This document shows, piece after piece, positions 18,428 through 18,842 of a DNA stretch of 64,000 nt; the stretch's first letter is position 1, and each line of letters starts with the position of its first letter. The position numbers were made by a program, and so were the translations under genes. This DNA comes from Mucispirillum schaedleri ASF457 (GTDB lineage: Bacteria; Chrysiogenota; Deferribacteres; Deferribacterales; Mucispirillaceae). The notes below the pieces were generated by a model. It made no database searches. It was not told the origin of the DNA and worked only from the letters and a program-made list of their open reading frames with translations. The stretch is from the NCBI RefSeq assembly GCF_000487995.2, contig NZ_CP097562.1:1795001-1859000 (forward strand). The letters are read 5' to 3'.

Positions 18428-18454
18428 TAAAGTATTACTTTTTACTTCCGATAA
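18428..18454 (+). promoter_or_regulatory. sigma-28 (FliA) promoter P1 upstream of flagellin
   Basis: TAAA (18428-18431), exactly 15 bases, then TCCGATAA (18447-18454). This matches the sigma-28 consensus TAAA-N15-GCCGATAA with one mismatch. Start of transcription would be near 18461. From 17911 to here I see no gene; a 71-codon ORF at 18016 has no supporting features. Confidence 0.8.
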
Positions 18455-18520
18455 CTATTATACAAGGGGCAGAGAAAAAGAAAAGCCCAAAAATAAAAAA
18501 GATAAGTTTTAAAAAAATGT

Positions 18521-18547
18521 TAAAGTAAATTAAAACTTATCCGATAA
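18521..18547 (+). promoter_or_regulatory. sigma-28 (FliA) promoter P2 upstream of flagellin
   Basis: TAAA (18521-18524), 15 bases, TCCGATAA (18540-18547). It has the same -10 box as P1, and both -35 boxes are followed by G (TAAAG). It lies 548 bases before the flagellin start codon, much farther than usual. Confidence 0.8.
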
Positions 18548-18554
18548 GAAAAAT

Positions 18555-18719
18555 GTGATAGAGATTAGGAAACAAAAGCTTACTTAAAACAAGGAGCATT
18601 TCCTAAAACACATTTAAAAATTTAATAAGATGTATAAAGTGGAAATTATATATCTTAAATTATTATAAGGTATCAAAATAGTTGAGCCCATAAGGAAATA
18701 TCCTTGTGGGCTTTTTTTA
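18555..18719 (+). ncRNA. Candidate sigma-28-driven small RNA with GGA hairpin loops
   Basis: Transcription from P2 would give an RNA of about 165 bases ending at terminator T1. Hairpin 1: TTAGGAAA (18565-18572) with TTTCCTAA (18599-18606), with AAGGAG in the loop. Hairpin 2: TAAGATGTATA with TATATATCTTA (about 18622-18654), with AAGTGGAAAT in the loop. The third hairpin is the terminator containing AAGGA. GGA motifs presented in hairpin loops are the hallmark of CsrA/RsmA-binding RNAs. No ORF with a ribosome-binding site is visible. It could instead be the 5' part of a very long flagellin leader. Confidence 0.5.
18685..18719 (+). terminator. Intrinsic terminator T1
   Basis: AGCCCATAAGGA pairs with TCCTTGTGGGCT around an AATA loop, followed by seven T. 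The 20 bases before it (GGTATCAAAATAGTTGAGCC) are repeated almost exactly before T2. Confidence 0.85.
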
Positions 18720-18789
18720 TTACCTTATTAAAAAATTAAAATTTAGTATATTAAAAATAAGTGTATATATTTTTAATGTAACAGCTTAA

Positions 18790-18842
18790 ACAGGTATCAA
18801 GATAATTGAGCCGATAAGGATATACTTATCGGCTTTTTTTTG
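18790..18842 (+). terminator. Intrinsic terminator T2 with duplicated upstream segment
   Basis: AGCCGATAAG (18809-18818) pairs with CTTATCGGCT (18825-18834), followed by eight T. The preceding GGTATCAAGATAATTGAGCC duplicates the T1 approach with two changes, so T1 and T2 are paralogous units about 123 bases apart. Confidence 0.85.

Follow-up and report, generated by a model that had tools for sequence, protein, structure and literature searches.

We asked what the long stretch of DNA between two sigma-28 promoters and a flagellin gene of Mucispirillum schaedleri ASF457 encodes, and whether the two terminators within it end a separate small RNA gene or belong to the flagellin transcript itself. 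The window analyzed was the whole of a 64,000-nt stretch (contig NZ_CP097562.1, positions 1,795,001 to 1,859,000) from this 2.35-Mb, single-contig genome, and coordinates are those of the window unless given as genome positions. Flagellin is commonly described as being controlled at initiation by sigma-28/FlgM and at translation by CsrA/FliW. Based on comparisons of sequences, we consider it probable that the region is a long sigma-28-driven flagellin mRNA leader containing a tandem transcription attenuator, in which termination would be the default and a factor-stabilized antiterminator would give read-through. Such an attenuator, if true, would be a third flagellin checkpoint across an order, and it predicts a new RNA-binding factor. 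The features of the locus are as follows.

18428..18453, plus strand: sigma-28 promoter P1 (TAAA-N16-CCGATA; TAAAGTATTACTTTTTACTTCCGATA), an exact core match kept in five congeners.
18521..18546, plus strand: sigma-28 promoter P2 (TAAAGTAAATTAAAACTTATCCGATA), an exact core match kept in five congeners.
18566..18605, plus strand: hairpin H1 of the P2 RNA, with AAGGAGC in its inner stem (fold and six-species comparison).
18626..18657, plus strand: hairpin H2, with UGGA in its loop, a possible CsrA site (fold and six-species comparison).
18669..18688, plus strand: antiterminator-like hairpin AT1 (GGUAUCAAAAUAGUUGAGCC; covariation in the ungapped alignment and in alignments A2 and A3).
18684..18718, plus strand: intrinsic terminator T1, overlapping AT1 (terminator scan and compensatory changes).
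18793..18812, plus strand: antiterminator-like hairpin AT2 (GGUAUCAAGAUAAUUGAGCC; covariation in the ungapped alignment and in A2 and A3).
18808..18842, plus strand: intrinsic terminator T2, overlapping AT2 (terminator scan and a covariance-model match at 18787-18841).
19047..19076, plus strand: hairpin whose loop is GGAGAG, 19 nt before the flagellin ATG; a likely CsrA site of the hag type (comparison between species and fold).
19084..19088, plus strand: GGAGG Shine-Dalgarno sequence, a second potential CsrA site (sequence).
19095..21380, plus strand: flagellin gene (Flagellin_N and Flagellin_C; Pfam).

Much of this framework had been proposed by a sequence-only reading of the same DNA. Its two near-consensus sigma-28 promoters, 93 nt apart, proved to have cores (TAAA and CCGATA) that match the sigma-28 consensus exactly. 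Its two terminators, each preceded by a near-identical 20-nt approach (copies at 18669-18688 and 18793-18812), were also borne out: the terminator scan found four terminator-like sites in the region against 1.0 expected, and the stems of both T1 (18684-18713, 13 pairs) and T2 (18808-18835, 11 pairs) are strong. The approach is itself a covarying RNA hairpin, GGU-bulged A-YYRA-NNNAN-UYRR-GCC, and its 3′ GCC strand doubles as the 5′ strand of the terminator. Since this strand is common to both, the two folds would be mutually exclusive, making each unit an antiterminator/terminator pair, with a median predicted energy of about −4 kcal/mol for the antiterminator versus about −19 for the terminator. 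The approach and the terminator 5′ arm could instead be taken for a third sigma-28 promoter that transcribes flagellin, T2 containing GCCGATAA, an exact sigma-28 −10 sequence, and a one-mismatch sigma-28 match overlapping the T1 unit itself in two congeners. We find this very improbable, however, given that the matching bases change along with their stem partners (GCCC, GCCA, GCCG), that the spacing to TAAA is wrong in the window T2, and that the copy before flaG reads GCCAAGG.

A flagellin promoter closer to the gene, which the sequence-only reading had thought worth seeking at 18850-19040, was not recovered in sigma-28 form. Among 38 flagellin leaders bearing the element, a sigma-28 match lies upstream of it in 28 and between it and the ATG in none, while in 10 a recognizable sigma-28 promoter was not found; the element thus occupies the position of an attenuator, between promoter and coding sequence. 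Given the lack of sigma-28 matches between element and ATG, transcription of flagellin most likely passes through the terminators, with non-sigma-28 promoters downstream of them as a possible exception, and this points to a leader attenuator rather than a separate sponge gene. Initiation at P2 is expected to yield RNAs of ~165 nt (ending at T1) or ~290 nt (ending at T2). Of the short sigma-28-made RNA proposed earlier, sigma-28 control and the expectation of short terminated RNAs are retained, but the separate gene is replaced by a probable leader attenuator, and the RNA is probably the terminated product of the flagellin leader.

Covariation supports the approach as a structured RNA. Among 17 distinct ungapped 20-mers, 99% of cells conform to its four upper pairs, compared with no more than 57% when the pairing is slid. 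In 22 elements aligned by MAFFT without regard to the structure, 95.9% of cells are paired versus 81% when shuffled, and the MAFFT-based form that includes the lower stem has 96.2%. Covariance model R1 returned 69 matches in the loci searched; the resulting alignment, being fitted to that model and hence biased toward it, has a covariation score of 0.650 versus 0.277 shuffled and at most 0.124 slid. Across 64 distinct sequences, the hairpin pairs are 98 to 100% formed, and each of the four upper pairs has changed on both sides. GGUA, A8-U14, and loop A12 are near-invariant. The inner 4-bp helix could form alongside the terminator, and mutual exclusion depends on the lower stem, in which the GG-CC pairs show little variation. 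Within the order, pair −1/21 of the lower stem gives a weak signal (p 0.02). In phage copies of the element (see below), this pair is formed in 16 of the 23 independent groups, where 8.5 would be expected (p 0.0006); it was not imposed as a pair by the phage search pattern, and the control pair −2/22 was not enriched in the same 23 groups. Since the terminator stem also begins with bases 18 to 21, covariation of −1/21 in phages supports mutually exclusive folds. Phage scans for altered lower-stem pairs found 0 compensated and 0 uncompensated cases, so that those scans do not separate pairing from sequence identity. The upper helix and the terminator both covary, giving two conserved alternative helices that have one strand in common upstream of a U-tract.

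The comparisons establish the promoters and terminators, their conserved arrangement, the covariation of the hairpin that overlaps each terminator, and its association with filament genes across the clade. In the scheme that we infer, which includes termination, read-through, a stabilizing factor, and CsrA binding, the unit N-GGU-[A]-YYRA-NNNAN-UYRR-GCC-N would share its GCC strand with the terminator that follows, such that only one fold could be fully formed at once. By default, the far stronger terminator would win and polymerase would stop at T1 or T2, producing RNAs of ~165 to 290 nt from P2. Stabilization of the antiterminator, probably by a factor recognizing the bulged A and loop A, would permit read-through into flagellin, and a separate limit on translation would then likely be set by CsrA/FliW, acting at the GGA hairpin beside the Shine-Dalgarno sequence. 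Because the antiterminator is weak beside the terminator, a stabilizing factor must be postulated; a search of the genome for a NusG paralogue, and one for an ANTAR protein that had no positive control, found none.

The same arrangement precedes other filament genes. Ten matches were found in the M. schaedleri genome, eight of which form tandem pairs of approach and terminator before four flagellins (window 19095; genome 1941551, 1945427, and 1939124), with one before flaG. The contents between promoter and element differ among these leaders, and approach plus terminator is their common part. Relatives of these flagellins in congeners are preceded by it too, and another genus has it in a changed form. 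The flaG locus lies within the window.

11400..11458, minus strand: single antiterminator-terminator element (covariance models R1 and R2, E 3e-5 and 1.5e-8).
10604..11038, minus strand: flaG gene, ~360 nt downstream of the single element (Pfam FlaG, 5e-8).

Seven other genomes of the genus have the same arrangement of element and flaG. In the scheme above, the attenuator unit would gate flaG and the other flagellins as well, so that filament genes would be limited together after sigma-28 initiation. We also considered a dispersed terminator repeat and rejected it, as strong matches in this genome are confined to flagellin and flaG leaders. A TGCAAGGACRAA-like motif downstream of the terminators (window 18860-18868) is common to the leaders of other flagellins and flaG in the same genome.

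Among 50 genomes of the phylum, an element match at E 1e-3 or better was present in 38 of 45 genomes of the order Deferribacterales and in 0 of 5 outside it, the latter including outgroups that possess flagellins. On inspection, the matches in genomes G016 and G025 were apparently due to chance, which leaves ~36 of 42 flagellin-bearing Deferribacterales genomes. The strong matches sit before flagellin or flaG; no convincing element was found in G016, G023, or G034, which are genomes of the order without flagellin. Flagellin without a strong element was seen in G011, G018, G024, G025, and G033, of which G011 has a variant form. An exact pattern scan of genome contigs returned 22 stretches, including five outside Deferribacterota (Planctomycetota and delta-proteobacteria among them) that are not before flagellins.

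The variant, GATACTGAAACAATCAGGTC, lies before a fifth flagellin in the family and replaces G2-C19 with A2-U19, keeping the pairing. In M. schaedleri it is found at genome positions 1861605-1861624 on the minus strand, with further copies at loci L233 and L236; it occurs once per genome in 14 genomes of the family (control matches, 0). Where position was compared (M. schaedleri, G002, G010, and G011), it is upstream of flagellin. There is no U-tract directly behind the variant in M. schaedleri or G010, and since the copies read are of this kind, the variant hairpin may have a function independent of the terminator.

We next consider the role of CsrA. The sequence-only reading had taken the RNA running from P1/P2 to T1 as a CsrA/RsmA sponge, a sigma-28-dependent small RNA that titrates CsrA off the flagellin mRNA. 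Several observations are compatible with this: the genome does contain csrA and fliW, side by side; the P2-T1 RNA has its four GGA in each of six Mucispirillum genomes; and the flagellin leader has a conserved GGA hairpin near the Shine-Dalgarno sequence. In the minimum-energy fold, the UGGA of H2 is in a loop, as the sequence-only reading had placed it, while the AGGAG of H1 falls in a stem. In six species, three of the eight outer-stem pairs of H1 have both-side changes while the inner stem is invariant, and H2 is invariant except for one G-U change and one broken outer pair. Against a sponge, there are just four GGA, one of them in a stem by fold; no Rfam match to Csr/Rsm families was found in the window at gathering score; and FliW already antagonizes CsrA. 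Furthermore, neither the remaining flagellin leaders read in this genome nor other genera have the GGA hairpins H1 and H2, while approach and terminator are kept. The order-wide part is thus the GGA-free approach hairpin with its terminator, whereas the GGA hairpins are confined to a single paralogue of a single genus. We therefore regard a sponge as unlikely and do not adopt it as the main function; titration of CsrA by the short RNA is possible as a secondary effect that the architecture does not need. At the 5′ end of the P2 RNA (window 18552-18614) there is a nested hairpin with a GCUUACUUANAANAAGGAGCA core that is invariant in six species and could bind a protein or RNA target.

A likely CsrA site lies closer to the gene. 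The leader resembles hag/flaA leaders controlled by CsrA and FliW (PMC6529632, PMC4894983) in having csrA, fliW, and a conserved GGA hairpin beside the Shine-Dalgarno sequence, but that layer acts on translation, whereas the attenuator proposed here lies upstream. The hag-type features present are csrA, fliW, the GGA hairpin, and a GGA at the Shine-Dalgarno sequence, and by this resemblance the leader fits CsrA/FliW control of the hag type. In the hairpin at 19047..19076, the UUGGAGAG loop is invariant and stem changes preserve pairing between species. We know of no counterpart of the upstream attenuator in hag/flaA leaders. In leaders L096, L100, L102, L103, L104, L106, and L111, GGCAAGGAUGCC-like hairpins occur ~30 nt upstream of the Shine-Dalgarno sequence and are followed by ACAYGGAGG at the latter, which suggests that flagellin leaders throughout the order have conserved CsrA sites.

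The element is also found in phages. A relaxed pattern gave 34 matches in viral contigs (L157-L190) versus 0 for a permuted control, on which basis we rejected chance as their origin; an exact element query against annotated phage records returned weak matches alone. The hairpin and terminator lie just upstream of head and packaging genes, at two positions in some contigs, with head maturation protease, portal, and terminase among the proteins encoded downstream (PHROGs). The copies are within co-directional gene runs, with an upstream ORF ending within 150 nt in 23 of 30 and a start codon within 120 nt downstream in 28 of 30. These positions would suit fixed partial terminators without regulation, in which the first-formed hairpin slows folding of the terminator and a constant read-through grades capsid dosage in phages and flagellin in Deferribacterales. 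The antiterminator is indeed transcribed first and overlaps the terminator, but the near-invariance of GGUA, A8-U14, and loop A12 exceeds the needs of simple strand competition, and we hold this explanation to be possible but doubtful. Tentatively, and with about as much reserve, the short hairpin GGUAYYRANNNANUYRRGCC might be a general antitermination signal recognized by a widespread factor or by some conserved component of the transcription machinery, used by phages for capsid and packaging genes and by Deferribacterales for filament genes after sigma-28 initiation. That phages carry the motif in their structural operons points either to a host factor used in common or to exchange of the element, and the motif would be a compact, testable switch.

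How does such an attenuator compare with known systems? In the RAT units of the BglG/LicT/SacY systems, two of which occur in the E. coli bgl operon, as in the present unit, the 5′ arm of an intrinsic terminator is overlapped by a small, presumably protein-stabilized hairpin. The present hairpin is set apart by its form (~20 nt, a single bulged A, and a five-base loop, where RAT is longer) and by its genes, which are flagellar or phage structural. Leaders controlled by ANTAR proteins have paired hairpins with six-base loops, unlike the one hairpin per terminator and five-base loop here. Antitermination by a hairpin mutually exclusive with a terminator is common to both (EutV type, PMC3369931). 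No ANTAR match was found in this genome by a search that had no positive control, control genomes giving no match either. Antitermination of the LoaP/RfaH type was rejected, since the genome has a single NusG gene and hence no such paralogue. The put RNA of phage HK022 is likewise a phage RNA element that suppresses termination, but it is ~70 nt long, has two stem-loops, and acts on distant terminators, whereas the present ~20-nt hairpin overlaps its own (PMC9378689). In E. coli, the late flagellar sigma factor also makes short regulatory RNAs, but these are UTR derived and target other mRNAs, whereas the simplest product here is the terminated flagellin leader itself (PMC10578931).

No Rfam family matched the window at gathering score. 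At E values up to 5, nine element loci gave none at the element except weak, sub-threshold matches to trpB, Qrr, and the L20 leader, and 13 phage loci gave none at the element. A flagellin-leader attenuator was not found in the literature searched, nor was mention of Termite-flg RNA, which we had considered. The element looks like an undescribed variant of transcription attenuation, a switch for read-through without an Rfam match. The paired hairpins of ANTAR leaders and a NusG paralogue are lacking, and put differs in size and layout.

A last alternative is that the element is not an attenuator and acts as a 5′-end stabilizer or processing site of filament mRNAs. The genes are highly expressed in both settings, and AGGAGGTG, which is complementary to the 16S 3′ end, follows the element in many leaders. 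Nearly all copies, however, have a U-tract directly after a GC-rich stem, the signature of an intrinsic terminator, which makes this alternative distinctly unlikely and favors the attenuator. The 16S rRNA 3′-end-complementary sequence, resembling AGGAGGTG(A), comes after the terminator in many of the order's flagellin leaders; in L095, L096, L100, L102, L103, L110, and L111 it lies 100 to 200 nt upstream of the flagellin ATG, where it possibly serves in 30S docking or mRNA stabilization.
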